The translations under genes were made by a program, and so were the position numbers. This document shows positions 1,999 through 29,161 of a stretch of 39,467 nucleotides of DNA, one piece after another. The notes beneath the pieces are model-generated. The model had not been told where the DNA came from, searched no databases, and was given only the letters and a program-made list of their open reading frames with translations. Location: NCBI GenBank assembly GCA_017478245.1, contig JAFVDW010000083.1:1-39467 (forward strand), given 5' to 3'. The DNA is from Lachnospiraceae bacterium (GTDB lineage Bacteria; Bacillota; Clostridia; Lachnospirales; Lachnospiraceae). The stretch's first letter is position 1; the number at the start of each line of letters is the position of its first letter.

Positions 1999-2041
1999 AG
2001 GCGGAAGCTGAAACATATAGGCAGCAGAGAGGATATGGAAA

Positions 2042-2353: not shown

Positions 2354-2365
2354 TCTGTAAAAGGA

Positions 2366-2956: not shown

Positions 2957-2974
2957 CAAAACGAGGGTTTTTAG

Positions 2975-4159: not shown

Positions 4160-4184
4160 TGAAAAGAGACAGAAAGGGTTGGCT

Positions 4185-5720: not shown

Positions 5721-5738
5721 GAAAGACAGGACGAAAAT

Positions 5739-8764: not shown

Positions 8765-8802
8765 GGAGTATACGATATGGCTATAGCCATATCGTATACT
8801 CC
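8765..8802. other. Perfect 38-bp palindrome downstream of the major pilin
   Basis: Positions 8765-8783 and 8784-8802 are exact reverse complements with no spacer. As RNA this would form an extremely stable hairpin. On the plus strand it is followed by AAAGTTGTTTT, a poor terminator tail; on the minus strand by TTTTTTC. It contains a GGAG (8765-8768) and an ATG (8777) that would open a 45-codon frame (8777-8914), so both would be buried in the stem. It may limit read-through from the abundant pilin message into the giant pilin gene. Confidence 0.8.
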
Positions 8803-8925: not shown

Positions 8926-8945
8926 GTGTAAATGGAGTGGTGAAG

Positions 8946-11900
8946 ATGATGGAACGCAGAAGCAGAGAAACGAATCAGGTATGGGCCCAAAAGCATAGGA
9001 AGAGTAAGGCGCTGAACAATCAGGGCTTTACTTTGGTTGAGATGGTCATCGTGGTTGGGATCCTCTCTGTTTTGATTGCTTTGGCGGCAATCGGTATCAA
9101 CGGCTACTATGAGTCTGCCAAACAGATGAAGCGGACAGAGGTGGCGGAGACTGCTTTCTACAGTATCCAGAGTCATGTGAATTATCTGAAGAGACATGAT
9201 TTGCTTGAGCCTTTTAACCAGGAGCTGGAGGACTACTATCATCTCAATGATAGTGGTAGTTTTAGAGTGCTTCGAGATGAGGAGAAGAATAATAAAGAGA
9301 AGAATAAGCTGCTTATCACAACCAACTATGAGGGCGCGGGTGATGCTGACAGCTTTTATAACAATGAATATGAGCCTGCCCACAAGGGCAGTAAAATTAT
9401 ATATCTTACATTGGATGGAACAGATGCGGACAGAAAGGCGAATCCGCTTTATGATATTTTGTGGAATGGACTGCGAGATGAGGAAGCGATCGGAAACAGC
9501 TTTTTGGTAGAGTATGATATGACCAGAGGTGTTGTGCGTAGTGTGTTCTACAGCGAATATGTGGACAGTCTTGGCTTTGACTTTGCGAATCTGGATGGAG
9601 CAAAGGAGGACAAAGCTGACTGTATATGGCGTGCAAGCGGTTATTTGTCCCAAAAACAGCAAGGATATTATGGCTTGGTGTTTACTTCTCGTGAGTATAC
9701 AGAGTTGATTGATGTGATTAAGGGACCCGAAAATGTGGTTTTGGTAAATGAAGATTGGCTGTATCTGAAGTGGAATGAGAGTAACACAGAAGTGCCTGAG
9801 TTTATAGATGGTACATATGACGTGAGCAACTTGTATTATACCATCCATCTGTACAGAACAAATGGCGTGGTGACTGACGAGATTGCCACATACGAATTTT
9901 TACAGGGCGATATTTATGAAGAGCAGAGCAATCCGTCTCCGGAAGGAGCACTGAGCAGGATTGATGACAGTGTTACAGGTGTGGAAAATGGAAAAAGTGT
10001 TATTTTGACAGATGCTATAGGTGGCGTCAAGAAAGCACGCATCGGTATGGCGGATATCACAGGAGCCGGTTCGATGAGCGGCAAAGATGAGCTTGAGTAT
10101 TTTCTGCTCTTGGAATGTCTGGATCATCGGTTTGATGCGGCTGACAGCGGCTATGCTTTGAAACCGGACGATGTGTTGTCTGCGACGGTGGAGGTCACTT
10201 ATAAGGATCCTGCGGGACGCCTTGCAAACGTGGAATCAAAGGACAGCGAAAATCAGGAAAGTGCTTATTTCGCTTACGTTGAGAAAGATGGTGTGGATGA
10301 GGTTGGCATTAGCTTCAGCAGACATCTGCAGAACATCAAAAATGGCGATTATGAGGGCGATTATAAGCTGATAGCAAATATTGATTGGGCTGATATTGAG
10401 AACAGAGGTAAAACCTTTGATTTTGAACCGATTGTCTTTGCTGATGAGACACCGGGCATCCTGCATGGTTTGGCAGGAAGCTTTAACGGAAGATTGACGG
10501 GGGATGATTTGGTAAACTTTGCCGATCGCTCCTATTATGATTGTTATGAAATTCAGAATTTGAAAATCAATGCACCCAATGATGCTTTGGTGGGTCTTTT
10601 TGCTACGAATAATGGAGAAATTAAAAATGTGATTCTGCGAAATCCTGCTGTGGTGGGTTCCAGCATGGTGGGAACCATTGTGGGTAGTAATCAGGGAACT
10701 GATTCTAAAGCGGCGAAGCTTAGTAAGATATGCGTGCTGAATGCCTCCGTGACTGCAAAGGAGCAGGCGGGTGGTCTTGCGGGAGCAAACAGTGGCACCG
10801 GAGCTTTGATTGAGAATTGTTCTGTCACTACCGGGGCAAATAGAATCTTGGCGTGGCGTGAATTGGGCGGCGCTGTCGGTGTGTCGGAAGGAACCTTGAC
10901 GAATATATCGGTTGCTGCTAATGTATGGGCGGCATTGCCTGAGGAAAGCCTGAATATATCCTCTGAAAATATTGGGAAATGGATTGGCGGCGTAATCGGA
11001 AGAGGTGCTGCGGGCAGTAAGGCAACGAAGCTGGTCAACGGAGTCAGATTGGATGCATATGGTATCCCGAAGGAGCTCTTTGGAACGGATGGACAGCGGG
11101 CGGATGCTGCGTTAGAGGAGATTGTTCCTTCTTCTGTTGTGGGAATTGCTTCGGTAGGTGGTATCGTCGGCAGTCTTGATGCGAATGCGGGCAGCTACAA
11201 GCATTTGTATAATTATGCCACGCTGCAGGCACTTCATATCAGCGATAGCGAGAGAAGTGCGAGGGGGAATGTCTATGTAAATCTCCATTTGGCATATGGA
11301 GGAATTGCCGGTAGCATTGCACAGAATGCGTCGGTAGAAAATTGTGTCAATTTCACGGAGGTATCGATCAGTCTGGCGGTGGCGGACAATGAGGGAAATC
11401 TCACTGCGATGAGCGCAGCAGAGGAGAAGGCGTTGTCGCTTCAGAATGCGAAGTATCATCCGCAGAAGATTGGCGGCATTGCCGGATTAAATGATGGTCT
11501 GGTAAAGGACTGCGCTTCCCGATTTGCGAGCTACGGCACACTGGCACAGGAGGCTGAGATACAGTTGAAGCGTCTGACAGGTGAGGAAGACTACTATTAT
11601 TTCGGTTATTATGTAGGTGGATTGGTGGGTAGCCAGGAGAAGGGTGAGCTTCTCTTCACATCGGATGCAGATGAAAAGGAAATGCAGGTATCTGTCAGGG
11701 GCTATCACAATGTAGGAGGTTTGGTGGGACAGCAGTTGGAGGGAGCCATAGGCTGTTTCAATGAGGATGCAGATGCCATTGTCGTGAAAGGAACAGTTGC
11801 GGGCGCCAGAAATACGAATAATGCTGTTTCCTTGCATGATACTACGCTGCGATACGGCTCTGTGGGCGGCGTTATGGGATATTGCGTGGGCGGCGTGCTT

Positions 11901-14900
11901 GATGGCGCATATACCAATGAAAGCAACGTGTTCGGCGTTGGGGCAGGAGGTATCATAGGCTTCCTGCAGAATGATATGACTTTGGAGAACTGTGCAAATA
12001 CCGGTAATGTTATGGCACTGGGCTTTAATACAATGGTTGGTTCCTATGTGGGAGGAATTGTTGGAACTAACTTTGGAACGGTGAGAGAGTGTGCCAACAG
12101 TGGTACGGTATCTACCTATATTGCAGATGGCGTGGTGGATGACTGGGCGACCGCAAAGACTTATGTCATGTATGTGGGGGGGATCGTTGGATGGAACTAC
12201 GGTATTGTGGAGGATTGTCATTCCAGACTGAATGCGGAGAAAACCAATTATCTGGCGGGGAATGGTCTGTCCATGGTGGGCGGTCTGGTCGGTAAAAATG
12301 AGAATAACGCAGGGGTCAATCTGGCTTTGATTAAAAACAGTGCCGAAGAGGAAGTGATAGATATTCCGATTGTGATTGGAAAGAGCAATGTCACCCAGCC
12401 TTCCAGTATCTATGGAACTTTTCCCCAGGCGGGAGGTGTGGTCGGCAGCTCCCCTGTGGTTACGGATTCAACCAGTACATCCACATTTTATCTGGATCAT
12501 TTTACCTATACGGGTCATATTGAGGTGCGGGCTGTCTCGAATGTTATGAGTGCTTATATCCGCGGCATAGGCGGCATTGCGGGTACCTGGTATGATGGGG
12601 AGGTCATGCGCTACTGTAAGATGACCGGTTCCATTGATTCCGCAGTGTCCAATACAGGTGGACTGGTGGGGTATCAGGAGAGCGGCATTATCGATGCGAC
12701 CAATGAAGTGGCACCGGGTGTTGTAATCAAAGGCACTACGCAGGTGGGAGGTATCGTCGGAAGATTTCACGCTGTTTATGCTGACAAGGCAAAGAGAGCA
12801 GATATGCAGGTGAAAACCAATTATGCTACTGTCACCGGAACGGAAAGGGTGGGCGGTTTCTTTGGGGAATTCAAAGGCGGCCATATAGAGTTCAACGACC
12901 GTATCAATGAGGGAACGATCACCGGAAGCGGAAGTTATGTGGGAGGACTTGTAGGGTATTATACTGCCGGCTCCAGTACAGATGCGCCGACCTATAAAGG
13001 ATTTCAAAATTGTACGAATAAGGGGACAGTCACAGGACTTAGCAATGTAGGCGGGCTTGTGGGATATTATGCACCTTATTCCACTCAGGTATCCTATAGA
13101 CCTTCGGAAACTTTGACGATATCGGACTGTAAGAATCTTGCCACTGTCACGCAGAAGGGCGGAAATGGAAGCAATATCGGCGGCATCATTGGATATGCGC
13201 TCAATCTGACTCTGTCGGTCTCAAACTGCACCAATTCCGGCGATGTGGTACTTGCGGATGAAACGGCACAGTCTTATAATGTGGGCGGAATTTTTGGATG
13301 GGTGAATTATACTGTTACCATCAGCGGATGCAACAATGAAGGAACGATCAGAGGAAACGACAGAACGGGCGGAATAGCCGGTATGCTGAGTTCTACGGGC
13401 ACAGTTACAAACAGTCATAATAATGGCGCGGTTTCAGGCGGTAAAAATGTGGGAGGTATCATCGGAAATGTTGGTACCGCAAACGGTCAGGCAGTGAAGC
13501 TTACGATGTCAGGCTGTACGAACAAGACAGGCGGCAAAATTGTTGCGTCGGATAGCTGTGCAGGAGGTATCATAGGGTATGCGAGAGTCGGTGCCCAGAC
13601 GGCGACGACGGCACCGCTTTCACTCACAAGCTGTACCAATCAAGCCACTGTGGATGCACCTCATGAACTGGGAGGAATTGCCGGATACATCTATTTGACA
13701 CGTTATACAATAACATCCTGTAACAACACGGGAAATCTGGGCTCTTCAAATCGATGGGAGATTTATAATGCGGGCGGCATTGTGGGATACGGTCAGATTT
13801 CTGCCGGAACAGTGGAGAGCAAGATCACAAGCTGTACCAACAGGGGCAGTCTGTTGCATCTTTCCGCTGCTGCAGATACGGCTGCAGCCGGCGGAATCAT
13901 GGGGAAGACCAACCAGACCATCGCGATTGATAAATGCACCAGTGGTTCTACACTCGCCGGAGCAACAGGTGATGTGAACAAATACACGCTATCCGCAGAC
14001 GCAGCGACCAGCGCTGTGGGAGGCATTATAGGTTGGATTGAAGACGCGAAAAGTACGGGTACAGCGGTCAAGGTTACATTGACGGGTTGTAAGAATTATA
14101 TGAAAATCAGCGCGGGCGGAAATCTGGGCTATGCGGGAGGACTGATCGGGCGTGTGGATAAAATGCCGGTGGTGCTCGGAAGTGCAACTGCCTCCTATCT
14201 CAATAATGCAAGCTACTATTGTGTGAATTACGGTATGATTACCTCTAATGGTGCAATGACCAATAGCGGTGGTCTGGTCGGAATGGCTGATGGCGGTACC
14301 TCGCTCGCTTTGTACGGTGCGAGAAACATTCCTGCGAGCAGTGTTAATTCTGCTACTTATACCTTGGCGCTCGAAGCCGCAGGTATGAGCAATGTGGGCG
14401 GTCTGATTGGCCATGTGAACAATGTAGGCACCCTGACACTTACCGGTGTTTCCGGTGTGAATGACAATCAGAGAACCATCAGGAGCACCGGCAATGTAGA
14501 GAATATAGGCGGTATTCTGGGGAATATGCAGAACGTCACTACTGTAAAGCTGACGGAGCTGGCTAATACCGGTACGTTTACCTACAACGGAAGCGTGACA
14601 AGGCATGGCGGTATTGTAGGTCATATTAATAATGTAAAAGATGCGGTCTTGTCTAACACCGACCAAAATAATACGGCAGGTGTCAAGACAACCGGTTATA
14701 ATAATGTGGCTCAGAGCGGCGGCATCGTTGGAAGTGTTACCAATTCGGTTGTGACGCTTGGCACGGAGGGCAATGCTGCAAGCGCATGTGACAATATCGG
14801 TGCATTGGATACCACAATGGGTCTTGTCTCCAATTCCGGCGGAATCGTCGGCTATGTGACCGGTGCATCCTCTGCGGTTACGGTAAATCAAAGCAGTAAC

Positions 14901-17900
14901 AGCGGCAAGATTTACAGCTTCGGATTCGGCAGCAAGAATGGCGGTATCATCGGAACTGTAGAGGGAGCTGCTTCCGCAGAGGCTGTGAACTGTGCTAATA
15001 GCGGAGAAGTAGGTGGAGAAGGTACGGCTGAAAAATATGGCGGTATCGTAGGCAATGCGGATGGTGCCGGAGCGATTGCGGTTAAGGGAAGCACCAACAC
15101 CGGCAAGATTTATTGTAAGGGAGCGTCCTATGATTGCAAGTTTGGAGGCGTCGTTGGATATGCAAATAATACGGTATCGTTGAGCGTTGTAAGCAGCGTG
15201 AACCGGGGCGAAGTCACATCCGGCAATTATGGCGGTCAGTTGGGCGGTGTTCTCGGTTATGCAAACAATGTAACGACTTTAAGTCTGGATGGTGCGGAGA
15301 ACTATTATGCGTTGGGGCAGAGCTTGAATAGCATCAGACAGTCGGGCGGTATTATTGGAGTGGTTAATTCGAGTTCAGGCACGGACAGAACCACTAAGCT
15401 TGCAAATTGTGTGCAGCATGGAAGCATTCTTCATGCGGAATATGAAGTAGGTGGTGTGGTCGGAAGGCATGAAGGCATCGGAATGACACTTGATAGTTGT
15501 ATCAACGGCTCTGCAACGGATACGGCAGAGGGTAAGATTGATATAGTAGTAGATCAAGGGCATAATATAGGAGGCTTGATCGGATATACGAGAACCAAGA
15601 CAAAGGCTGACGGTACAATGTCCGAGGATAGATTGACGAATTGCTATAATTACGGAACCGTTTATGCGTCCAGTGATGCGGTCAACCGAGTGTATCACAT
15701 AGGGGCTCTTGTAGGATTTGTCAACGCGAATGTGGTGATGGGTGATGCCGATGATCGTACAAAGCAGTGCGGAAATCTGGGGGCGATCAACGGTATCAGT
15801 AAAATTGCCCTAGAGCATGTGGGCGGAGCCATCGGTCATGCTGAAACATCCACCATCAAGCTTTATGATTTCGTGAATGAAGGTATTTTTGGACAGAATG
15901 TTACAAGGATGAACAGTTCCGGAGGTGTGCTTGGATTTGTAGACCGCTGTTGGATCGATTTGTATCGTTGTAACCAGTTGGGACAGATTTATAAGGCAAA
16001 AGAAGGAGTCGGCGGACTGGTAGGTTATCACATCGGCTACAATCTGCGGATGGATGAGTGTAATAACGGAGATCCTTTGGATGCATCAAAGGGAACCATA
16101 TCCATGGCAGCAAGTGCATCAGAGAAGATTGGCGGTCTGATCGGTGATAGTGAATACAATATCAATCCTGACGGAACACATTCAGTGGAGGTTTTGACCA
16201 GAAGTAATAATTATGGAATGATCACCGGGATTGCAGGAACCGGTTCCACCAACCGTGTGGGCGGTATTATTGGCGTATGCGTGTCAAGCTTTACTGCAGG
16301 TGATCCGAATGATCCGACCATGGGATGTGCGAATTACGGAACCATCGATGGTCCCAATAATTTAAATATTGCAAATGCTGGTGGATTGATGGGACATTTC
16401 TGGGGACGTAATGATCCGGAGGAAGTACAGATTTATGATTTTGTCAACGAGGGTGTTATCGCACAGAATGCTGCCAGAGCAGCTTTTGTAGGCGGTGTGG
16501 TCGGCAATGCTGAGGGCGCGAATGTATTGATTGTACGCAGTGCGCAGAAAGCACCGATTTATCATGCAGTAGAGAACGTAGGCGGAATTGTGGGATATTT
16601 TGCAAGACATACGCTGAAAGTTGAGGATAGCGTGAATGAGGGCTTACTTTCTTCTACATCCTCGATGTTCAGGAATGGTGGAATCCTTGGATATTCCGAG
16701 AGAGGTGTTTCCACTACCCTTACAAGCTGCACGAACAATGGTAAATTGGAGATGGCAACCACCGCGACATGGATAGGTGGTGTGGCAGGAGCAATCGAGA
16801 ACGGAACAGAGGCAGCGATTATAGACTGCACGAACAATAGTGATGTGATGTTTTGGCAGGCAGCCAATAGTATAGGCGGTATTCTGGGACGTTTGAAAAT
16901 ACCTACAGCAGCTATTGTCAGAGCTGAGAATAACGGTGCAGTGGGTAAGACCGGCGGAACCAACGGTGAAGGAGATGGTCTGGGAGGTATTCTCGGATAT
17001 GCAGATGCCAATGGATTCCTTTCACATATCCAGATAGAAGACTGTGTCAACCGTGGCACGTTGAATGCCAGAGCAAGCTACCAGGGAGGCATCATGGGGC
17101 ATTTATTCTCCTCGGTGGCGGAAAGCGAGTTGGAGATTGTAGGCTGTGATAATTATGGTACGATTAACTATGGCAGAGATCGAACCGGCGGTATCTTCTC
17201 CGGACAGACAGAGCATTTGGGAGCAGTGTTCCTCGCTAATTGTGTGAATTATGCAGAGGTAAATGCCACCGGCACCTTCGCGGGCGGAATAGCAGGAACG
17301 ATTTATAGTTCTGCAGGTATGATTCATTGTATCAATGCCGGCAATGTGAACGCGCAGAACAGAATCGGCGGTCTGGTGGGCTCTGTTGTTTCACCCCGCA
17401 GCCCATATATTGTGGATTGTTATCAATTTGGTACTGTCACAGGAAATATTGCAAACCAAATGATACAGTTGGTGGACGGTGGTCCGCTCAATTATATTGA
17501 CAATTACTATTATGGTACACAGACCAATCTTTTGGGAGAAGGGCAGAACCGTGGCGATTTCTACAAGGTATGGCAGGCAAAGGATGATGCTTTGAATTAC
17601 GGTTATTTCAGTCAGAATGTGTATAATCAGCTCTGCGATAAGTTTGGCGTGGAACGGAATTGGCAGAATGGCGGCGTAGACGCGATGGTGGCAAATGCGA
17701 AGTATCTGATAGAACATTACCAGTATACACCTACGGAACCCAGAACCAATAGTTTCGTCTTTGATGAAAGTAACAATACACTTTCCTGGAAGATTACTGC
17801 GAATAATTACATTGCGGTAGACGGCATGGAATTGGCACTGTATCCCGTGGATATGGATGCGGCAGAGATTGAGGCGGATAATAATAATGAAAAGGCAGAG

Positions 17901-18248: not shown

Positions 18249-18253
18249 TTTAC

Positions 18254-18292
18254 AAAAACGCAAAGTTCGGTGAGCTTTGCGTTTTTGTTGTT
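18254..18292 (+). terminator. Strong rho-independent terminator after giant pilin 1
   Basis: A 13-bp perfect stem (18254-18266 with 18276-18288), 9-nt loop, and a TTTTTGTTGTT tail, starting 6 nt after the stop codon. It isolates the second giant gene transcriptionally. Confidence 0.9.
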
Positions 18293-18332
18293 AAATTTTA
18301 ATGAAAATCCCTTTTTTATACTTTAAGATTTG

Positions 18333-18361
18333 TTGAATTATACCGAAAAATACTATATAAT
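18333..18361 (+). promoter_or_regulatory. Predicted sigma-A promoter of giant pilin 2
   Basis: TTGAAT at 18333-18338, a 17-nt spacer and a perfect TATAAT at 18356-18361. The expected start is near 18368, just before a 16-bp tandem repeat. Confidence 0.75.
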
Positions 18362-18369
18362 TTTAATAT

Positions 18370-18449
18370 GATAAAGTTGCTATAGTATGAAGTTACTATG
18401 GTACGAAGTTACTATGGAATGAAATTACTATGGAATGAAGTTATAATGG
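18370..18449 (+). repeat. 16-bp tandem repeat (five units) over the 5' end of giant pilin 2
   Basis: Consecutive units at 18370, 18386, 18402, 18418 and 18434 follow a TATGAAGTTACTATGG-type pattern. The first matches about 12 of 16 positions; the other four differ by 1-3 bases. Each contains one or two ATGs. A unit length of 16 is not a multiple of 3, so gain or loss of a unit shifts the frame of any start inside it. Confidence 0.8.
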
Positions 18450-21400
18450 GTAGTATGGAACGAATGGATGGTATATTTATGCAAGGAAAAGATAGGTTTT
18501 GGCACAAAAAAGAAAAAAATGGATTCACATTAGTAGAGATAGTGATTGTGGTGGCTATTTTGTCCGTCATACTTGCATTTGCTGCGGCGGGAATCAGTGG
18601 ATATATAAACTCCTCAGAGCAGATGCGTCGGACAGAGGTGGCGGAGACTGCTTTTTACAGCTTGCAGAGCCATATTAATTATTTGAAGCGTCATGATGCG
18701 CTACAGAGCTTTGAAGATCAGTTAAAGAGCTATAATCTTGCCATGACAGGGAGCGACCGGGTCATGACAGAGCCACAGAACCGGACGATTATAGTATCTA
18801 ATTATGAAGAGGGGGATGCGGCTGCATTTTACAATGAGGAGTATTATCCTGCGCATGAAAACAGTGAGATTATCTATGTGGCATTGGATTCTTTGAATGC
18901 TGTCGGTACTGCAAGAGAGATGAACCCCTTCTATGATGTTCTTGCCAGTGCAATCGGCGATGCTTCTGTGATGGAAAACAGTTTTTTGGTGGAATATGAT
19001 CTGAGTACCGGAATGGTTCGCAGTGTTTTTTATAGTGAGGATGCAGATAATCTTGGAATGGCTTTTGCCGACCCGGAGGGGACTAAGCATGACCAGGGAG
19101 ATTGTATCTGGCGAGACAGCAAGGCGCTTTCCAAGAAGAAACAGGGATATTATGGAGTTGTATTTACCTCTCACGCATACGAAGAAGTTGTGAACTCGGT
19201 GGATGTGCCTGATAAGGTGGAAATTGTGAATGGAGACAGACTCTATCTGACTTGGGCAGAGACCAATGCCAATAATCAAAGCTTCATTGACGGAACCTAT
19301 CGTATGGAGGCATTGTACTATACTATTCATTTATATGATCAAAACGATGTGGAGATTGCTGCCTATGAAGTGCCGAGGGCAGAGATGTATGAGGACATTT
19401 CCGGGACGCAAGAGGGTGTGTTGAACAGCCTGGATGATTATGACGTATTGAACGGAAAGCAGATTGTTGTGGAGGATACACTGGATGGCAGCACAAAGAC
19501 TGCCCGTATCGGTTATGCAGATCTGGCTTATGAGGAAGCACCTGACAATGTGTCCGGGGAGTATTATTATATGCTGTTGGAATGTCCGGATCATCCTTTT
19601 GGTGACAATGGTTATGCGTTTGAAGGGGCTGATACTATCTATGCAATACTGGAGCTTGCCTATGGGGAGAATGGCGCAGGAAATGGGGAACTCAGCCAAC
19701 GCTCCAATACGGAAAGTGTGTATTACGCTTATGTAAAAAACACAGATGGTGATACAGAATATGGAATCGCTTGCAGCAGACATTTGTGGAATGTGCGTAA
19801 TGGCTTTGCAGATGGCGACTATCGCCTGGTGGCAGATATCGATTGGACTGATATAGAGGGACGTGGGAGAGCAATTACATACACTGCTATTATGTTTGCA
19901 GATAAGGGTGTACCAGGTTCGGTGTTGAATTTCATGGGAACATTTACAGGAGAGAAAACGGAAGAGCTTCTGGGAGATGTGTTTCTGGACAGCCATGAGA
20001 TTCATGGAATCAAACAATCAGAAGACGTCAGTGCAGTGGGATTGTTTGCCACCAATGAGGGACTGATTGAAAAGGTAGTTCTGACAGATTATGAGGTGAG
20101 TGGAGTAGGCGATGTGGGAACCCTTGCCGGAATGAATCTGGGTACAATTCGTGATGTGTGGGTGCAAAATGCAACTGTGACAGCAGAATATCAGGCAGGT
20201 GGTCTGGTGGGCAATAACAGTGGCAGTATAGACGGGGTGGCAGTCACCGGCGCGGGCAGGATTAGTGCGCAGTATGCGGTTGGAGGAGTTGCGGGTGTAT
20301 CCTCCGGGTCAGTGTCCAATGCGGCTGCTGCTTGTCGGGTGGAAAGTTATGTCCCGGAGAATACACAGAAGCTTACCGGCAGCAAGGTGGGACGCTATGT
20401 GGGTGGTGTCATTGGGCAGGCGAAAGCAGGCTCCAGTGCACAGATGCTTTTTAGCGGTATTTATCTGAATACAGAGAAGGTTCCGGGGCATATGGAGCAT
20501 CTGCAGAACAGTGGTGTGGCAGTGAGTGACGTCGTTGCTTCCTCTGTCACAGGTATCGGGGAAATAGGCGGCGTAATCGGTACTCTGGAACAGGGTGCAG
20601 GCACCTATGAGAAGCTATATAATTATGCAGACCTGCAGGTCATCTATATTCCCACAGAGGGAACCTATGGAAGAAAGGCAAGGGGCGATAACAATACCGG
20701 GAATTCCTTTATTTATCAATATTATGGTGGAATTACCGGAAGGCTGTTGTCGGGAGACACTTTGCTTGCCTGTGAGAATTTTACACCGGTGAAGGTGACC
20801 TTTGTGGAGCGGGCAGATGAGGAGAGTGATTATACACCGGTGGCGGTTGAGACAGTGTACAATTATATTTTGCGTGTCAACAATGCCGGAGGCTATAATG
20901 CACAGATCAATCAGCCTCAATATATCGGTGGTATCGTGGGATTAAGCGATGGGACGGTACAGGATTGTCTGTCCGCATGCGCTGACTATGGACCCTTTGA
21001 GGAGGAGCTCTCCAAACAGCTTGTGCGCCTGGAGCATCAGCAGGAGACCTATGTAGGCTGGTATGTGGGCGGATTGGTAGGCTTTAATAGAGAGGGTGTG
21101 GTGCTTTTCACGCCCAGTCTTGGCAGACAGGAAATGAAGGTGTCAGTACAGGCATATATTACGGCAGGCGGTCTGGTGGGCTGGCAGGAAAAGGTGTCTG
21201 CAGCAGTGCGCAATGAGACTGGCAGTCCCATTGTGGTAAAGGGCGTGGTGGCAGCGGAACAGGATTATGCAGGCGGTGTGGCTGGCAGTCTGCATATTGG
21301 AGAAATCACTGGCGCCTATAGTAATGAATGCAATGTCTTTGGAGAAATGTCCGCTGGAATAGTCGCATGTCTTGGAGGTACAACACAGAAAAATCTGGTG

Positions 21401-24400
21401 CTGAAGGATTGTACCAATAGTGGAACCATCATCGGAAGAGGCTTCGGCGCTAAGGGGGCACTGTGTGGTGTGGGCGGTATTGCGGGAATCAGCTATGGGA
21501 CGCTTGAAAATTGCAGCAATACAGGGACGATATCGGCTTATTATGATGCAGGAATTCCCTCCGTGGTAGATAATCGTGGCGTAGTGGATATGGGGGGCGT
21601 TGTGGGTTACAATGCCGGAACAGTGAAGAATTGTCACAGCATGCTGAACGCAGATGAGTCTAATTTTCTTGCAAACAAGCATTATGGCAATCTGGGTGGT
21701 CTGGTAGGGCATAATATGAATAATGGCAACACTCTTCTGGGTGTGATTGTAAATGAGCGTAAAGAGGAAGAAATTGCAGTGCCGCTGTTCGTAGGAGAGG
21801 ATACGAACAGTAACGCAAATTCCCCCACCAAAGTCGGCGGAATCGTAGGGTATCCGGAGGGAAGTGGTGCAATCACGCTCCAAAATTATACTTATAGCGG
21901 GAGTATTTCTTTTTCCAGCAAGGCAGGTATGAATGGTCAGGAGAATGGCACCGGCGGTATTGCAGGCTATTGGCTGGCAAATCAGACGATGAGTGGCTGC
22001 AAGATGAAGGGCAGTATCGTATCCGTCAATACGCGCAATGGCGGTTTGGTAGGATACATGAAGGGCGGTGTGATTGATGGTACCAATCAGGTGTTGGAAG
22101 GCGCTTCTGTCATGGGCACAGACCATACAGGTGGCGTTATTGGTACGCATACTGCTAATAGAGCCGAATCCCGGATGGATGTACTGGAAAATCATGCCAC
22201 AGTTATCGGGGGAACCGGTGTAGGCGGTATCTTTGGATATGTCAGCAATGGGTTTTATGTGAGTCTGGATAACAGGGTAAACTACGGGGATGTGACAGGA
22301 ACCGGTAATTATGTGGGCGGTCTGGCAGGGCGTTATATGGCGGCTGTCACCGGAGCACCGGATGGCACGGAGGGGATAGTAAACGGTATTGAGAATGCTA
22401 CAAATTATGGAATCATCAAAGGGGTCTCTTACACCGGCGGTCTGGTGGGAGATTTGTATACCAATACCACAGCTCATGTGTATCATGTGAAAAATTGCTC
22501 CAATCAGGGTGATATCTATCAGTGTAAAAGCGGAACCAGTTATTACGGTGGTCTGATCGGACATTCTATTTGGGAAGCGGTAGTGGAGGATTGTACCAAT
22601 ACGGGCGCGATACTTCCGGCGGATACTGCTTATATTACGGATGCAGTGGGTGGTCTTGTCGGATACGAGGAAAACAATATATCATTCTATCGCTGTGCCA
22701 ATCACGGAACCTTGTATGGCAGAAGATGGGTGGCTGGTATGGCAGGCTATGTGATTAAGGCGAGCGGTAGTGTCAAGGCTATTGATTGCATCAACGGAAA
22801 GGGAGCGGACATGGTTGCCACCATGGCTTACTGTGGCGGTATGTTCGGCTCTATCCGTTTAGATAACATGGGAGAGACAGTGGCTTTGGAACTGCGGGGC
22901 TGCAGCAATGCCGGACAGATGGATGCACCGGAGCAGTTGGGCGGACTGGTCGGCAGAATCGAGAGAGCGCATTTTGAGATTACAGATTGTCATAATACAG
23001 GAGATATTGGATTCACAGGTAACTGGAAGATTACCAATGCCGGTGGCATGGTGGGCATCTATCAAACACTCGCAACCACGTCAGAAAGTCTGATTTCAGG
23101 TTGTACCAGTGAAGCCAATATTTCCCACCTGACTGCATCCGGAAACAATGGATTGACCGGCGGTATCATCGGTCAGAGTCTGGCAGCACTTCGTATAGAG
23201 CATTGTACAAATGGCTCCAAGAGCAAGACCTATCTGATTTCTGCGGAGGGAAACACCGGAAAAAGCGGAGGGATTCTGGGCGCGAGTTTATCTGCTTCGG
23301 TGCCTACCACCATCATTGACTGTGTCAACTATGCAGATTTCTATGCAGGCGGCTCGGTGGATCATGTGGGCGGTATCATGGGTGTCGGATATGGAACGAC
23401 GATTATGATCGGTGAACAAGGAGTGCCGGAGACTTATTGCTATAATTATGGCAATTTGGACTGTGGGAATGTTGGATATTATTTCGGAGGTATTCTGGGA
23501 TCAGGGGAGGCGAAGGAGCTTGGCATCTATGGTGCGGAGAATTATGGACTGATAGGAGAAAAGACTGCATATATCTATTCCACCGGTGGACTGGTGGGCA
23601 GATTGTCTGTGGCGAATGCTAACAGCTTTCTGGTGACGATGGAGGATTGCGTGCAGCATGGAACCATCTACCATGCAACCCAGATGGTGGGAGGTCTGAT
23701 CGGGCGTATGGCAAATGTAAAGCTGGTGATGGACCATTGCCGGAACGGAGTGGAGTCCGGAGAGGAAGGCAGGCTATATGCCATTGATGGTAGTGTCACC
23801 AGTTATCTTGCGGGGATCATAGGATATTGTGATATGAATCTCAATGTAAATTATGACAGACAGATTGTGATGACGTGTACTTACAATTATGGCGACATCT
23901 ATGTGGGAACCGCAGGCGGTACTTATTATGGAGGTCTGATCGGATTTACCTGTCTGCCTACGACCTTAGGCGAAAAGGAGAATACGGCGAAGGCATGTCT
24001 CAATTACGGCTCTATTTACTGCACCAATACTGCCACAGCCAAGGGAATGTCCTATGTGGGCGGACTGATCGGCAGTCTGAACAATAGTGCAACAGAGGCA
24101 ACTCTGGGGATTTATTATGGCGAGAACTATGGAATTATCGGCGCGAAGGAAGGGGGGACGGTTGGCTTTGGTGGCGGTATGGTGGGTTCTCTCGGGGCGG
24201 AAGCAGAGTTGATTGGCTGTATCCAGCACGGTGTGATTTGGCAGGGCTCTAATTATCTGGGTGGAATGATTGGAAATCATACCCATTTTAACCTTTTGAT
24301 TGAAGATTGCAGCAATGGTGTGGCAAAAGAGGCAGGAAGCGGTGCCCTCCATATGTATACGCCGGGTGGCGGCAGATGCGGCGGAATGATTGGCAATCTG

Positions 24401-25285
24401 TATGGTCCTACAGATCTGGCTGCCCACAAGAGTGAAGTCAATACCGTGACCATCTTAAACAGTGTGAACTATGGAGATATTTCATTGGATTCCACGGCTG
24501 CTTCTTTTTCATCGCTGTCCGGTATGGTGGGACGCGTGGACCGCATGCACCTTACTTTGGGAGACAGTGCAGATGCCACAAAGTGCTGTTTAAACTATGG
24601 TGATATTGACAGTGCGGTGAATGCGCTGATGGATAGTGCGGGGGGATTTGTAGGCTTAGTCACCGAATACGGTCCTTACGATATCGCAATCTATCATGGG
24701 GTGAATAATGGCACCTTTGGTGCGCATATGAAACAGGTACGCCTGAGCGGAGGATTTATTGGGAATTCTGTTGGCGGAGAATTAAAGCTCTACAGTTGTA
24801 AGCAACTGGGACAGATATATCATGCCAAGGATCGCGTGGGAGGTCTTGTTGGACTTAATCAGTATTATAATCTTGTGATGGATGGTTGTGTCAATGGCAG
24901 CGCAGAGGATGAAGCATGCGGTTATATCCAGATGGGTGTGAATCCGGTCGATTATGTGGGAGGTCTGATTGGAGCTTCCGAGGCAAATCTGGAGCAAAAT
25001 GGGGAAGCATGTAAGGCTGTACTCACCGGATGTATCAATTACGGTACGCTATATGCAGTGGATGCGGCTGTTTCGGTCAACAATGTAGGTGGTCTGATGG
25101 GCTTGAGCAGATATACTACTGTGATTGGCGAACCGGAGGATGCCGCAAAAGCCTGCTATAACTATGGAACCATTGATGGTACGAACAAGGCATTGTTCTA
25201 TCAGGCAGGGGGCTTTGTGGGGCAGGTGCTGGCACCTACCGGAGCGGCGGATAGTCTGTCTATCTACAATGGTGTCAACTATTGA
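18398..25285 (+). CDS. Giant prepilin-signal GLUG-repeat protein 2, N-terminal part (interrupted)
   Basis: 2295 aa to an in-frame TGA. KEKNG is followed by FTLVEIVIVVAILSVILAFA, a class III prepilin signal (cleavage after Gly42 in this numbering, Glu at +5). The next 500 residues are clearly paralogous to giant pilin 1 (MRRTEVAETAFYSLQSHINY; DGDYRLVADIDWTDIEGRG), followed by GLUG repeats from about residue 547. Several in-frame starts are possible: ATG 18398, 18419 and 18446 lie in the tandem repeat, while ATG 18455 begins MERMDG, matching the MMERR start of the paralog, and ATG 18479 has GGATGG upstream. None has a strong ribosome site. The frame continues past the TGA with the same repeats and the same C-terminal domain as the paralog, so this is one gene of about 3587 codons broken by one base change, or read through. 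Confidence 0.85.
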   Translation: MVRSYYGMKLLWNEVIMGSMERMDGIFMQGKDRFWHKKEKNGFTLVEIVIVVAILSVILAFAAAGISGYINSSEQMRRTEVAETAFYSLQSHINYLKRHDALQSFEDQLKSYNLAMTGSDRVMTEPQNRTIIVSNYEEGDAAAFYNEEYYPAHENSEIIYVALDSLNAVGTAREMNPFYDVLASAIGDASVMENSFLVEYDLSTGMVRSVFYSEDADNLGMAFADPEGTKHDQGDCIWRDSKALSKKKQGYYGVVFTSHAYEEVVNSVDVPDKVEIVNGDRLYLTWAETNANNQSFIDGTYRMEALYYTIHLYDQNDVEIAAYEVPRAEMYEDISGTQEGVLNSLDDYDVLNGKQIVVEDTLDGSTKTARIGYADLAYEEAPDNVSGEYYYMLLECPDHPFGDNGYAFEGADTIYAILELAYGENGAGNGELSQRSNTESVYYAYVKNTDGDTEYGIACSRHLWNVRNGFADGDYRLVADIDWTDIEGRGRAITYTAIMFADKGVPGSVLNFMGTFTGEKTEELLGDVFLDSHEIHGIKQSEDVSAVGLFATNEGLIEKVVLTDYEVSGVGDVGTLAGMNLGTIRDVWVQNATVTAEYQAGGLVGNNSGSIDGVAVTGAGRISAQYAVGGVAGVSSGSVSNAAAACRVESYVPENTQKLTGSKVGRYVGGVIGQAKAGSSAQMLFSGIYLNTEKVPGHMEHLQNSGVAVSDVVASSVTGIGEIGGVIGTLEQGAGTYEKLYNYADLQVIYIPTEGTYGRKARGDNNTGNSFIYQYYGGITGRLLSGDTLLACENFTPVKVTFVERADEESDYTPVAVETVYNYILRVNNAGGYNAQINQPQYIGGIVGLSDGTVQDCLSACADYGPFEEELSKQLVRLEHQQETYVGWYVGGLVGFNREGVVLFTPSLGRQEMKVSVQAYITAGGLVGWQEKVSAAVRNETGSPIVVKGVVAAEQDYAGGVAGSLHIGEITGAYSNECNVFGEMSAGIVACLGGTTQKNLVLKDCTNSGTIIGRGFGAKGALCGVGGIAGISYGTLENCSNTGTISAYYDAGIPSVVDNRGVVDMGGVVGYNAGTVKNCHSMLNADESNFLANKHYGNLGGLVGHNMNNGNTLLGVIVNERKEEEIAVPLFVGEDTNSNANSPTKVGGIVGYPEGSGAITLQNYTYSGSISFSSKAGMNGQENGTGGIAGYWLANQTMSGCKMKGSIVSVNTRNGGLVGYMKGGVIDGTNQVLEGASVMGTDHTGGVIGTHTANRAESRMDVLENHATVIGGTGVGGIFGYVSNGFYVSLDNRVNYGDVTGTGNYVGGLAGRYMAAVTGAPDGTEGIVNGIENATNYGIIKGVSYTGGLVGDLYTNTTAHVYHVKNCSNQGDIYQCKSGTSYYGGLIGHSIWEAVVEDCTNTGAILPADTAYITDAVGGLVGYEENNISFYRCANHGTLYGRRWVAGMAGYVIKASGSVKAIDCINGKGADMVATMAYCGGMFGSIRLDNMGETVALELRGCSNAGQMDAPEQLGGLVGRIERAHFEITDCHNTGDIGFTGNWKITNAGGMVGIYQTLATTSESLISGCTSEANISHLTASGNNGLTGGIIGQSLAALRIEHCTNGSKSKTYLISAEGNTGKSGGILGASLSASVPTTIIDCVNYADFYAGGSVDHVGGIMGVGYGTTIMIGEQGVPETYCYNYGNLDCGNVGYYFGGILGSGEAKELGIYGAENYGLIGEKTAYIYSTGGLVGRLSVANANSFLVTMEDCVQHGTIYHATQMVGGLIGRMANVKLVMDHCRNGVESGEEGRLYAIDGSVTSYLAGIIGYCDMNLNVNYDRQIVMTCTYNYGDIYVGTAGGTYYGGLIGFTCLPTTLGEKENTAKACLNYGSIYCTNTATAKGMSYVGGLIGSLNNSATEATLGIYYGENYGIIGAKEGGTVGFGGGMVGSLGAEAELIGCIQHGVIWQGSNYLGGMIGNHTHFNLLIEDCSNGVAKEAGSGALHMYTPGGGRCGGMIGNLYGPTDLAAHKSEVNTVTILNSVNYGDISLDSTAASFSSLSGMVGRVDRMHLTLGDSADATKCCLNYGDIDSAVNALMDSAGGFVGLVTEYGPYDIAIYHGVNNGTFGAHMKQVRLSGGFIGNSVGGELKLYSCKQLGQIYHAKDRVGGLVGLNQYYNLVMDGCVNGSAEDEACGYIQMGVNPVDYVGGLIGASEANLEQNGEACKAVLTGCINYGTLYAVDAAVSVNNVGGLMGLSRYTTVIGEPEDAAKACYNYGTIDGTNKALFYQAGGFVGQVLAPTGAADSLSIYNGVNY

Positions 25286-28200
25286 AATATCGCCCAGAAT
25301 GCCGGTGCACTGCGTCATGGCGGAGGAATTCTGGGATATAGTGTGGAACAGACTACGCTGATTGGGTGCACCAATCTGGGACAGATGTATCATCTGATGG
25401 GGCAGGGCTCCGGGAATCTTGGTAATGGAGGAATTGCCGGATATATTGGTTCATATGTGGAAGGAGAGGTCTCACGGATTGAAAACTGTGTGAATGGTTC
25501 GGCAGGCGATTCGGAAGCAGGAAGATTATTTGGAAGCAATAACGAGAATAATGTAGGCGGTGTGGGCGGTATTGTAGGTGGTATCGGAAATAGCGCCAAT
25601 ACGGAGGCAATCCTCAAGGGTTGTGTCAATTATGCGTCCATGGAGCTAAAGGCAAATTCTGTAAACTTCATAGGAGGCATCCTTGGAAAGCAGTATACTT
25701 CTAAGATGGTGACACTGGAAAATGTAGTGAATTATGGAGATATTGTGTGCAGGAATGCTACCGCTACCTGTATTGGGGGGCTGGTAGGGCAGGCAGAGAA
25801 TAACAATGCCCATATCACCATCGGAGGCGTACTGGCGGATGGTTCTACAGATACGTCTAAGGGCTGTCGGAATGAGGGCAACATCAGACTGGAAGAAACA
25901 AGCTATGGCAGACAGGTGGCAGGAATTGCAGGTCAGCTTTATAATGCTTCTCTGTATGGTGTGCTGCAAAATGGGGAGATTAAACCGGATGAAGGGTCTG
26001 TTGTGACCTCGGCGGCAGGTCAGGTATCTTATCTGAGAGGAAGCAGTGTGATGCAGGATTGCATACAGATGGGTACGCTGAATCATGTGGTGTATGTCAA
26101 TACTGTGCCAAATGCTACGGCAGGCGGTTTGGTTGCGAGAGCGGATGGTTCGCTTAAGATGCTTCGCTGTAGCAATGGTTCTGCAGAGAGCAGGACAAAT
26201 GGCGGGAATGCCGGAGGGATATATGCCTATAGACAGAATGCGAAGACAGGAGAGTTGGTGAACATATATCGATTGGGCGGACTGATCGGTCTGAATGTGG
26301 CATCGCTGACCATGGAGGACTGTGTCAATTATGCAGATTTAGAGATGGTGGGAATAGCCACTAACACCGGAGGCATCGTTGGGGAAGCTTATACGGACAA
26401 CAATGCCAATGGATATTATCCAGCAGTGATGAAGCGATGCATCAATTATGGAGATATCACCTGCAATGAGAACATGAGTAATGTTGGCGGTATTGTGGGC
26501 AGCGCAGCCGGTGGCACCTCTGCCACATCGCTTCTCACCATGGGTGAGGAGGCGGATGCTGCAAAGGCATGTATCAATTATGGAGCAATTACTGTGGGCG
26601 GTAATACGGTGTCCGTGGGTATTGGGGGACTGGTGGGTCTCTCTACCAGACCCATCGCTATCTATGATGGCGTCAATGAAGGAAATCTGGGCAATTTCGA
26701 CCGAGAGGAAGGCTTGCTTGGCAGTGCCGGCGGCATTGTGGGCAAGCTGGCAGCCATAAGCAGTATTCCTTCTAAGCTGATTCGGTGTCAGGAGAAGGGA
26801 GATATGAATCGACTGACTACGGCAGCTATGCGTACCCCCAACTGGGCATATCAGCAGGACGGCGGACCGGGAGGTATCGCAGGAACCATTCGTTGTACCA
26901 CTCTGATTGTAGATTGTGTCAATGGAGCGCCCGGTGTGGAGCAGACTATGGAATTTGTGAATGGTGCAGTATCCGGCGGTGGTATCGTAGGGCTTGCTTT
27001 TTGCGGAGCAAATGCTAAGCCCATCCGGATACAAAATTGCATCAACTACAAGGACATGGTGGGTGCGGGCACGCTTGATTGCACAGGTGGTATTATAGGC
27101 TGTTGCTATTATTTTGTAATCGGGGATGAGACAGATGAAGAATTGGGGTGCGTAAATTATGGAAATATTTACGCAGCAGGTAAAGAAATTTATCTGGGTG
27201 GTTTGTTAGGATATGCCGGTGCAGGCAAGATTTACAACAGTATCAATGAAGGAGATGTGACTAGTGGAAAGGCAGGTGCCAGCTTCAGTGGTGGAATTGC
27301 CGGATATATGTATGACGTTGATTTGAAGGTGGTAGGAAACGAAAACAGAGGAAACCTGTTGACGGCGGGAGCTCTGAATGATGGGGTGGAAATCAGAGGA
27401 ATCGGCGGTATCGTGGGACATTTCCGTTTCCCCAACAGTTCTGCCGACATAGTGCGTAACATTGATATCAGTCAGGTATATCTTGCAGAAAATGTGAACA
27501 AGGGTACCATCGGCGTGGAAGGACATTCTTTAAAAGGCATCCATATTGGTGGTATTGTGGGAGAATTTAACGGTACGTTGGAGAATTGCACCAATCTGGG
27601 CGCAATCTACATGGGAAACAGTTGTGTGGCAGGTATTGTGGGATATCTGAGCGGTGAGGCGACCAGGACATTGATTAAGGGCTGCGTGAATGGTTCTGCC
27701 ACAGATACAGAAGCAGGTCTGATTCATACAGATGAGGTGATGGATAAGGTGGCAGGAATTGCAGGCTATATTCAGACGCACAATTATGCAGATCATTTAC
27801 AGATTATGAATTGTATCAATTATGCTGATATTGAACTGAAGGCCGGTCAGCAGAACAATTATGTGGCAGGTATCATGGGGCATGTATACTGCTCAGGCGC
27901 CACGGCGCACTTGGAAATACTGGATTGCGAGAATTATGGAAATCTCTACAATGGTTATACCGGTGTGGCAGGCATCTATCCTATTATCACCAGCAATTCC
28001 GGACAGGATTATATTATCCGCTGCACCAATTATGGAGACATCTACGGAGCCGGAAATTATGCGGGCGGCATTTGCGGTACTGTGGGAGGTTACGGCGGTA
28101 TCATGCACTGTATCAATGTGGGCAATGTCTATGGAGCGGAATATGTAGGCGGAATCACAGGTTACTTTGGCAATGCTACTACCACACCTTACATGATTGA

Positions 28201-28330
28201 CTGTTATCAGTTTGGACAGGTGACCGGAGATTATTATGGTACATTAAATGTTGCGCGTGCGGGCGGTATCGTGGGATGGCTGGGAAGACCGGGCGAATAT
28301 GTAATCGACTGCTACAGTAACGGAGCGGTT
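20036..28330 (+). repeat. GLUG repeat array in giant pilin 2 (spans the stop)
   Basis: The GG[IL][VI]G / C-x-N-x-G rungs are as in the paralog. The super-unit IYxGVN recurs at 24689 and 25262, 573 bp (191 aa) apart, nearly the same period as in giant pilin 1. The order of rungs within a unit is conserved: QLGQIYHAK, then MDGCVNGSAED, then CINYGTLYA, then CYNYGTIDG. The array carries on across 25283-25285 without loss of register. Confidence 0.85.
25283..25285 (+). other. In-frame TGA at a conserved repeat glycine
   Basis: The codons read GTC AAC TAT TGA AAT ATC. In equivalent rungs the motif is VN-x-Gly or NYG with a GGA or GGC codon, for example ENYG at 23539 and 24122 and VNNG at 24704. 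One base, GGA to TGA, explains the stop. The same reading frame is open for another 3876 nt. Confidence 0.9.
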
Positions 28331-29161
28331 GTCAATGGAAATGCTATGATTGGCAGATATAATGCCGGCAATGGACCAGAGGTGAATCCACCGACCTGGT
28401 CTGCTGTGGATGCAGGTGAGGGAGAAGGTGCTTTTACTGAGTCGGTATATCAGCAGTTGTGTGAGCGCTTCGGTGTGGAAGCGCAGTGGAATGCGGAGGA
28501 TATGGTGGCGAATGCAAAGTACCTGATCAGTGTATACACCTACACGCCTCAAGACCCCGGCGGAAGCAACTTTGTGTATACTGCAGCCGATCCCGCGGAC
28601 AGCAAATCAAACAATACCATCAGTTGGAATATCACTGCAGGCGGCTATGTGGCTGTGGATGCCATGGAGTTGGTTCTTTATCCGGTAAGTGTAGTGGATA
28701 CAGTGGATGAGGAGTCCGGTGAGGTAACTTACCGTACATTGACAGAGGAGGAGATACTGGCTGATGAGGCAGGCGCGCTGTCTTATCTCACACTTAAGTA
28801 TGATTTTACGGGAACGAGAATTCCGGATACGATCAGTGTCATTGTGCCGGATGAGCAGCTTCCGATGGAGGCAACAGAATATCGCCTGGTGCTGCGTAAT
28901 ATCGGCTGCAGCTATGTGGCGTTAGATGACAGCTATCAGTTAATCCTTTCCCAGAATTCATCAAGGGTATTGGTGGAGGGAGAGACGATTGTGTTACCTG
29001 CCCGCCCGGAGGAGCTTAGTGTACTGGGACTGTCGATGTTTAGGCCGGAGAACCTGATTACGGACATTGCGCCGGAGGAGGAAGAGGAGACAGAAGGGAA
29101 TGTATCGGCGGGAGATATAGAATCTACAGATACGGTCTCCAATGGAAATACTGTACAATAA
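25343..29161 (+). CDS. Giant GLUG-repeat protein 2, C-terminal part after the stop
   Basis: 1272 aa counted from the first GTG after the TGA; homologous sequence begins directly after the stop at 25286. There is no ribosome site, promoter, signal peptide or prepilin motif before the GTG, so independent translation and export are unlikely. It carries GLUG rungs to about 28330 and ends in the same C-terminal domain as giant pilin 1 (LCERFGVEAQWN; MVANAKYLISVYTYTP; NTISWNITAGGYVAVDAMEL), with an acidic Ser/Thr tail. No sortase signal or transmembrane helix is present. Treat it as the distal part of the gene starting near 18398; whether that gene is functional depends on whether the TGA is real. 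Confidence 0.8.
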   Translation: MEQTTLIGCTNLGQMYHLMGQGSGNLGNGGIAGYIGSYVEGEVSRIENCVNGSAGDSEAGRLFGSNNENNVGGVGGIVGGIGNSANTEAILKGCVNYASMELKANSVNFIGGILGKQYTSKMVTLENVVNYGDIVCRNATATCIGGLVGQAENNNAHITIGGVLADGSTDTSKGCRNEGNIRLEETSYGRQVAGIAGQLYNASLYGVLQNGEIKPDEGSVVTSAAGQVSYLRGSSVMQDCIQMGTLNHVVYVNTVPNATAGGLVARADGSLKMLRCSNGSAESRTNGGNAGGIYAYRQNAKTGELVNIYRLGGLIGLNVASLTMEDCVNYADLEMVGIATNTGGIVGEAYTDNNANGYYPAVMKRCINYGDITCNENMSNVGGIVGSAAGGTSATSLLTMGEEADAAKACINYGAITVGGNTVSVGIGGLVGLSTRPIAIYDGVNEGNLGNFDREEGLLGSAGGIVGKLAAISSIPSKLIRCQEKGDMNRLTTAAMRTPNWAYQQDGGPGGIAGTIRCTTLIVDCVNGAPGVEQTMEFVNGAVSGGGIVGLAFCGANAKPIRIQNCINYKDMVGAGTLDCTGGIIGCCYYFVIGDETDEELGCVNYGNIYAAGKEIYLGGLLGYAGAGKIYNSINEGDVTSGKAGASFSGGIAGYMYDVDLKVVGNENRGNLLTAGALNDGVEIRGIGGIVGHFRFPNSSADIVRNIDISQVYLAENVNKGTIGVEGHSLKGIHIGGIVGEFNGTLENCTNLGAIYMGNSCVAGIVGYLSGEATRTLIKGCVNGSATDTEAGLIHTDEVMDKVAGIAGYIQTHNYADHLQIMNCINYADIELKAGQQNNYVAGIMGHVYCSGATAHLEILDCENYGNLYNGYTGVAGIYPIITSNSGQDYIIRCTNYGDIYGAGNYAGGICGTVGGYGGIMHCINVGNVYGAEYVGGITGYFGNATTTPYMIDCYQFGQVTGDYYGTLNVARAGGIVGWLGRPGEYVIDCYSNGAVVNGNAMIGRYNAGNGPEVNPPTWSAVDAGEGEGAFTESVYQQLCERFGVEAQWNAEDMVANAKYLISVYTYTPQDPGGSNFVYTAADPADSKSNNTISWNITAGGYVAVDAMELVLYPVSVVDTVDEESGEVTYRTLTEEEILADEAGALSYLTLKYDFTGTRIPDTISVIVPDEQLPMEATEYRLVLRNIGCSYVALDDSYQLILSQNSSRVLVEGETIVLPARPEELSVLGLSMFRPENLITDIAPEEEEETEGNVSAGDIESTDTVSNGNTVQ

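Follow-up and report, generated by a model that had tools for sequence, protein, structure and literature searches.

Giant modular prepilins with GLUG repeat arms beside a type IV pilus operon in a Lachnospiraceae bacterium

Results

Two giant prepilins follow a type IV pilus operon

We analysed a stretch of 39,467 nucleotides from a Lachnospiraceae bacterium (assembly GCA_017478245.1, contig JAFVDW010000083.1). This stretch, referred to here as the window, is an entire contig (C6) of a 2.49-Mb genome that is 95% complete. Its plus strand carries a type IV pilus operon encoding pilins, PilC, PilB and further assembly proteins, followed by two very large genes, giant 1 and giant 2. The giants are predicted pilus subunits about 20 times the normal size, in which a small pilin is fused to a long repeat arm. 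Their features are as follows (aa, amino acids; HMM, hidden Markov model).

8946..18248, plus strand: giant modular prepilin 1, about 3,100 aa (single open frame, N_methyl, TIGR02532, GLUG motifs)
8946..9026, plus strand: leader peptide of giant 1 with a final Gly, cleavage predicted ahead of FTLVE (Pfam N_methyl)
9024..9923, plus strand: giant 1 carrier domain, the pilin helix and putative head common to the family (alignment A1; HMM match 7.6e-77)
10770..17487, plus strand: giant 1 GLUG array, 59 core motifs at a mean spacing of about 38 residues (motif count; the unit profile matches GLUG-bearing solved structures)
17488..18248, plus strand: giant 1 C-terminal domain, common to giant 2 (alignment A4; 38-50% identity per 100 residues)
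18398..25285, plus strand: first frame of giant modular prepilin 2 (2,295 aa), closed by the TGA 25283-25285 (frame reading, N_methyl)
18521..19420, plus strand: giant 2 carrier domain, 56% identical to that of giant 1 (alignment A1, HMM)
25286..29161, plus strand: same-frame continuation of giant 2, GLUG units and C-terminal domain (1,291 codons; 1,272 aa from the first GTG, 25343)

The open frame of giant 1 extends from 8937 to 18248 and encodes 3,103 aa from a GTG, and the likely start is the ATG at 8946. Giant 2 begins at about 18398. The original prediction, made from the letters alone, held that both proteins carry a full class III prepilin signal and GLUG repeats, and both claims stand. 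The signals score above the cut-offs of Pfam N_methyl (21.2 bits) and TIGR02532 (16.3 bits), with 25.9 and 23.7 bits for giant 1 and 27.6 and 26.5 bits for giant 2. The core GLUG motif occurs 59 times in giant 1, 40 times in the first part of giant 2 and 18 times in the second (19 if read from the stop), far above the maxima of 11, 9 and 7 in 500 shuffles (means 2.6, 2.4 and 1.3). Both proteins had also been put at more than 3000 residues, which is right for giant 1 and wrong for giant 2, split as it is by the TGA.

In the 11 window frames checked for their stop codons, TGA occurs only at 25283-25285. A recoded TGA was rejected, as the codon occurs once in giant 2 and is absent from the other long frames read. 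The frame beyond it has a third-position GC (guanine plus cytosine) of 0.477, against 0.473 in the first part, and closes with the C-terminal domain seen in giant 1. Since the downstream frame is open, keeps this third-position GC and reaches the same domain, the break should be recent, mixed within the sample or a sequence error. Candidate explanations are read-through, a recent mutation, a mixture of strains and an assembly error. At E 0.01 the continuation matches no Pfam family, and the first part of giant 2 has no relative among solved structures by phmmer.

A family of giant prepilins shares one carrier

We searched 200 sampled genomes of the window's family, Lachnospiraceae (handles G below), the window's own included. 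The N-terminal 618 residues of giant 1 found matches in 68 of them, many through the pilin helix or GLUG units alone. We chose nineteen frames that reach 1,500 aa and combine a prepilin signal with at least five GLUG motifs, and these align with the two window giants over 300 residues, well beyond the helix (alignment A1, the shared carrier). At E ≤ 1e-20 a profile of this carrier has 30 matches in 27 of the 200 genomes. Twenty-one of them are the rows from which the profile was built, selected on length, signal and GLUG. The other nine comprise five giants (G012, 3,211 aa; G107, 3,632 aa; G087, 2,476 aa; G129, 2,572 aa; G026, 4,540 aa) and four frames of 200, 226, 787 and 857 aa. The giants of the family number 26 frames in 23 of the 200 genomes and span 1,555 to 7,664 aa. 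Every one of them has seven or more core GLUG motifs, which is partly a selection rule for 21; the other five have 29, 28, 7, 7 and 26. G022, the other sampled genome of the window's genus, has no carrier match.

The first part of the carrier (280 positions) matches the solved pilins PilE1 (1.6e-11, positions 2-89) and PilA (3.7e-9, positions 2-61), mostly over the helix. A scan of named genomes yielded at least 40 loci, at least 17 with a prepilin-GLUG frame above 1,500 aa (one extends past the end of its stretch), and three of the loci are probably the same as genomes G002, G015 and G086. Among these giants are proteins of Diplocloster agilis (3,039 aa) and Eisenbergiella tayi (3,057 aa), both Lachnospiraceae, and of rumen and gut Lachnospiraceae assemblies. 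A class-wide sample of 391 genomes gave, at E ≤ 1e-9, five further large frames outside the Lachnospiraceae (G295, G438, G284, G510 and G358). Beside the GLUG giants at loci L028 (G160), L035 (G120), L096, L084 and L081 stand further large prepilins, 1,169 to 2,230 aa long, that are devoid of core GLUG motifs.

The giants are linked to pilus genes

The original prediction would fail if the architecture occurred mostly in genomes devoid of pilus genes. The fetched stretches, 15 to 60 kb in all, speak in its favour: pilB, pilC or pilT is present for 22 of the 26 family giants, on the same strand as the giant in 22 of 22. Two of these cases lie at contig ends, where G107 shows PilT only and G027 PilC only. 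The four unlinked giants (G084, G133, G052 and G087) adjoin small prepilin or GspK-like genes, and their genomes encode PilB at another site, which in G133 is about 40 kb off on the giant's own contig. For the five giants outside the Lachnospiraceae, pilB is in the stretch in 5/5 and on the same strand in 4/5.

Because our first query held the prepilin signal and so favoured pilus neighbourhoods, we also made a survey with GLUG alone, in which 23 of 60 genomes had a Pfam GLUG match. Thirteen frames of at least 1,800 aa were listed in this survey: eight prepilins, four with other N-termini and one outside the output of the filter (>500 aa, at least four motifs). That filter gave 14 frames from 20 stretches, three of them prepilins. 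By eye, seven of the 11 without a prepilin signal carry a membrane or sortase-type tail at the C-terminus.

The pilin helix is the sole hydrophobic segment and retains Glu5

That the giants have no other anchor, as originally claimed, is confirmed. The pilin helix is the sole hydrophobic segment in giant 1 and in the first part of giant 2, and the second part has none. Across 40 prepilin-GLUG frames (37 distinct contigs, three duplicates, two frames cut at the 3' end), 39 have one such segment, that of L087 lies below the threshold, and a second segment occurs in none. Further carrier giants, including those outside the Lachnospiraceae, have one hydrophobic segment each. A loose sortase pattern is present in the tails of G004 and G027, with no hydrophobic stretch after it, and the combination of an ordinary signal with a C-terminal anchor of the LPXTG or membrane type is absent from the window giants.

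In type IV pilins, Glu5 of the helix serves packing and not mere anchoring. Where the search did not demand Glu5, all 14 of the 14 carrier frames have it (G129, G012, G026, G107, G087, G162, G044, G295, G438, G284, G510, G358, G257 and G489; the short matches of G172 and G152 lie outside this set). The rows of alignment A1 were excluded, as the first search pattern demanded Glu5. In G489, Ala replaces the Gly before the cut.

In genus g258, which belongs to another family, the carrier lies near pilC in four species whose PilC proteins are 69-78% identical. Two of them have the carrier with an array (G438, 2,449 aa with 22 GLUG motifs; G284, 2,780 aa with 31) and two have the carrier alone (G257, 498 aa with one motif; G489, 511 aa with none). 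Long and short carriers are 32-36% identical over 223 to 265 positions, and the giant of G284 is turned relative to pilC. Because the carrier beside pilC occurs with or without the array, the simplest reading is that a pilin in a single chromosomal slot has acquired or shed the GLUG array as a module.

The arms are predicted to form a GLUG beta-helix

The repeat unit of giant 1 follows the pattern GGIxG...C.N.G. Pfam Glug (PF07581), whose InterPro entry we take to be IPR011493, passes its cut-off at six single sites in the window that cover all three giant frames. Over whole proteins only the first part of giant 2 passes (25.4 bits), giant 1 falling below the cut-off. A profile of GLUG unit pairs finds six solved chains, the best being the LPXTG protein 7uvl (3.9e-5), with IgA1 proteases at 7.9e-5 to 2.3e-3. 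According to the relevant passages of PMC7695701, the N-terminal domain of the Streptococcus pneumoniae IgA1 protease is a beta-helix. From these matches the arms of the giants are predicted to fold as a GLUG beta-helix. A beta-helix rises 0.48 nm per coil. The arm of giant 1, with about 60 units, would thus reach about 30 nm if one unit corresponds to one coil.

An identity as M26 IgA1 metallopeptidases was rejected, as none of the three giant frames has an M26 domain at Pfam E 0.01. No enzyme family was found in the window giants at this threshold, and none over its cut-off in the giants of 16 relatives (four whole frames and 12 C-terminal pieces), G179 aside; the nearest match among those pieces is Alpha-amylase_C in G012, at 20.3 bits against a cut-off of 21.2. 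G179 encodes a prepilin-GLUG frame of 7,664 aa (on contig C19) beside pilB, pilT and pilC, and its end domains are as follows.

L040 2577-3500, minus strand: NlpC/P60 (7.8e-15) and Hydrolase_2 (2.5e-13), cell wall hydrolase domains (Pfam)

Judged by its domains, the G179 giant may be a pilus-borne peptidoglycan hydrolase. Since it ends in two peptidoglycan-hydrolase domains, effectors other than adhesins could ride such arms.

The upstream operon lacks a prepilin peptidase and PilT

The genes that precede the giants are listed below.

1507..1998, plus strand: GspK-like minor pilin without Glu5 (G|ASLLIVLGL; NCBIfam GspK E = 8.9e-4, 18.9 bits against a cut-off of 130; no Pfam family)
2042..2353, plus strand: small minor pilin, GspI/XpsI-like (Pfam N_methyl 26.7 bits; NCBIfam XpsI below cut-off)
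2366..2956, plus strand: minor pilin, 196 aa (Pfam N_methyl 27.4 bits)
2975..4159, plus strand: PilC platform protein (Pfam T2SSF 3.3e-60)
4107..5720, plus strand: PilM-like protein, transmembrane stretch close to the end (PilM_2 4.3e-5 and TIGR01175 1.8e-7, both below cut-off)
5739..6404, plus strand: PilO/T2SSM-like protein (T2SSM 3e-4, below cut-off)
6405..8102, plus strand: PilB extension ATPase (T2SSE 1.7e-129, MshEN 2.8e-15)
8263..8718, plus strand: probable major pilin, 151 aa (N_methyl 33.2 bits; GspG/PilA-type matches below cut-off)

The GspK-like pilin is a candidate tip or cap subunit, and the PilM-like protein is possibly a PilM-PilN fusion. The giants had been placed directly downstream of a complete pilus operon. 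Their position stands and the completeness does not, as neither a prepilin peptidase nor PilT is present in the operon. Elsewhere in the genome, two peptidases with paired CxxC and GGGD motifs lie on contigs C46 and C77, adjoining two other pilus clusters; on what we take these motifs to mean, both look bifunctional. T2SSE-family matches number five, three of them PilB-like, one a protein of 409 aa on C84 and one a 412-aa frame on C119 (51.7 bits). The C84 protein adjoins two peptidase matches and is probably a Tad ATPase. The C119 frame matches a PilT query at 2e-7, whereas the PilTs adjoining PilB in 7 of 21 relatives' stretches match at 4e-108 or better. Because the C119 match is so much weaker, we count no clear PilT among the T2SSE and PilT-query matches of this 95%-complete genome, where a missing contig could hold it.

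Just upstream of the operon, positions 662-1276 encode a short chemoreceptor-like protein with a partial PocR sensory domain and a partial MCP signalling domain, possibly a chemosensory input linked to the pilus. At the contig end, window positions 1-130 hold a perfect 68-bp direct repeat in 1.9 copies, which perhaps marks an assembly break.

Signals around the giant genes

Three features lie in the intergenic regions around the giants.

8765..8802, either strand: 17-pair hairpin in the gap from the major pilin to giant 1, resembling a terminator on each strand, with the longer T run on the minus strand
18252..18288, plus strand: intrinsic-terminator-like hairpin after giant 1 (1 found, shuffle mean 0.0)
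18374..18443, plus strand: tandem repeat with a 16-nt unit in 4.4 copies, overlapping candidate start codons of giant 2

Promoter-like sites are no commoner than chance before giant 1 and little above chance before giant 2 (3 against 1.3 expected). The candidate start codons of giant 2 lie within or after the 16-nt repeat. Because 16 is not a multiple of three, a change in copy number could alter expression of giant 2, and the repeat could act as a phase-variation switch. An Rfam scan found no family in the window. Of 29 sources scanned, only L071 has a c-di-GMP-I riboswitch (4921-4998), which precedes a gene run with pilC, pilins, a modular pilin of 858 aa and a giant of 1,888 aa.

Discussion

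A model for the giants as tip subunits

Together, our analyses suggest that the giants are modular minor pilins by which a type IV pilus carries a long beta-helix arm, most likely at its tip, a reading to which we assign a probability of roughly 0.62. The sequences, the architecture, the family, the linkage to pilus operons and the gain or loss of the array within one genus are observed, whereas we infer the cleavage, the incorporation into the filament, the tip position, the beta-helix fold and the adhesion. The class III leader, the Glu5 helix and the putative pilin head (the carrier) would lead to Sec insertion. The leader would then be cut by a prepilin peptidase supplied in trans from elsewhere in the genome, and the processed giant would pass to PilC/PilB for assembly into the filament as a subunit. 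The GLUG beta-helix, joined to the head, would be closed by the C-terminal domain. The giants would sit at the tip beside the Glu5-less GspK-like pilin, and this position is likely because the arm should not fit inside a packed filament. From there the long arm would reach beyond the cell wall, with an adhesive role that is probable by analogy only.

The passages of PMC8179133 and PMC10628169 on modular type IV pilins model them at the tip, with the module blocking further stacking. In Streptococcus sanguinis, as described in parts of PMC9934059 and PMC10628169, a Glu5-less pilin is added first and is flanked by two modular pilins. The window has the same cast of two modular pilins and a Glu5-less small pilin, namely one GspK-like pilin without Glu5 and two Glu5-bearing modular giants, which by this analogy would be tip subunits.

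Several observations weigh against this model. A bulky arm could instead block assembly. The interruption of giant 2 means that one of the pair is dispensable here, or that the sequence is wrong. The giants look like separate transcription units, with a hairpin before giant 1 and a terminator before giant 2. The carrier also occurs on smaller proteins and is not exclusive to giants, and 21 of its 30 matches built the profile. Giant prepilins free of GLUG at some of the same loci indicate that other giant modules exist. GLUG itself is not pilus-specific, with 11 of the 14 survey frames read having no prepilin signal. Finally, most C-terminal parts scanned match no Pfam family, which leaves adhesion without direct support.

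The strongest competitor, which we nevertheless consider unlikely, is that the pilin helix is merely an anchor, cleaved or not, from which about 30 nm of beta-helix would cross the wall with no need of the pilus machine. That the helix is the only hydrophobic segment, that the giants here look like their own transcription units, and that the arm is of the order of a Gram-positive wall (a wall figure from general knowledge) would all suit such a tether. However, a tether would not account for pilus genes in 22 of the 26 stretches, all on the giant's strand, or for a putative pilin head kept together with Glu5, and many GLUG proteins with no prepilin signal anchor by a C-terminal tail instead (7 of 11).

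It is less probable still that the giants decorate the body of the filament, where a flexible linker would let one be built into the shaft now and then and give a bristled fibre. Passages of PMC8179133 allow modular pilins a body position if the linker is flexible, and two giants per locus, as in the window and in G184, would fit this arrangement, but the same source and the corresponding part of PMC10628169 predict that bulky modules clash in the body. We regard as quite improbable that the arm is a spacer by which catalytic domains, peptidoglycan hydrolases for instance, reach other cells: just such domains close the 7,664-aa giant of G179, but neither the window giants nor the 16 other relatives scanned have an enzyme family at the thresholds given above. 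Very improbable is a decaying or mis-assembled locus, with giants that are pseudogenes or artefacts of assembling a repeat-rich region. The TGA in giant 2 and the repeat at the contig end might hint at it, but giant 1 is open for 3,103 codons, the 1,291 codons beyond the TGA are open at unchanged third-position GC, and 22 other genomes have open giant frames.

Beyond tip placement in the window, we tentatively entertain, at somewhat less than even odds, that gut and rumen Clostridia build a distinct class of type IV pilus whose tip pilins bear beta-helix arms tens of nanometres long, with arm length and end domain (adhesive or other, in the 7,664-aa case two peptidoglycan hydrolases) freely exchanged between species on one conserved carrier head. 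The pilus could then be a general platform that places arms and effectors on hosts, fibres and other cells. Lachnospiraceae is a major gut and rumen family. If the giants are assembled, type IV machines would be able to handle subunits tens of times the normal mass, and the system would be a means of surface attachment that we did not find in the literature searched. The graft series of g258, bare carrier against carrier with arm, lets the size limit of a tip module and its binding be probed.

Comparison with known systems

Modular pilins are already known, and it is the size and prevalence of the giants that appear undescribed: in the open-licence literature searched, we found no description of pilins this large or of a link between GLUG and pilins. 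Papers that came up for GLUG together with pilins were unrelated, the passages of PMC6958937 and PMC12206443 on large pilins had no bearing on the giants, and IPR011493 appeared in PMC8179133 alone. Other GLUG-bearing surface proteins, namely the M26 IgA1 proteases and LPXTG proteins, have the same kind of repeat as the giants but no pilin carrier, and the GLUG frames of our survey that lack the signal often have a membrane tail instead (7 of 11). The closest mention is the IPR012902-IPR011493 architecture in PMC8179133, very probably the same as that of the giants. The part of that source concerned gives it one clause, as a predicted M26 peptidase, and puts the extreme among multi-domain cases at 860 aa, whereas no peptidase domain is found in the window giants.

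ComZ of Thermus thermophilus is likewise a pilin with a beta-solenoid for which a tip position and ligand binding are argued in the pertinent part of PMC6561018. Its solenoid, which binds DNA, is inserted in the pilin sheet (PMC8179133, in part), whereas the array of the giants follows the head and is far longer. KilN/TadG of Tad pili, a large pilin whose C-terminal module forms an adaptable tip in the passages of PMC12075869 that describe it, belongs to Tad machinery and has an unrelated module.

Nearest in design are PilB (vWA) and PilC (lectin) of S. sanguinis, which, like the giants, combine a pilin carrier with a grafted module in a monoderm host (passages of PMC9934059 and PMC10628169). 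Processed PilC, by the parts of these sources that describe it, is 52.8 kDa, against 1,555 to 7,664 aa and a GLUG array in the giants. The modules of modular pilins covered in these passages have a few hundred residues, whereas here 1,500 to 7,600 are carried on one carrier in 23 of 200 genomes. The same design beside pilus-assembly genes in relatives of this gut-type bacterium suggests a new class of long-armed pili.

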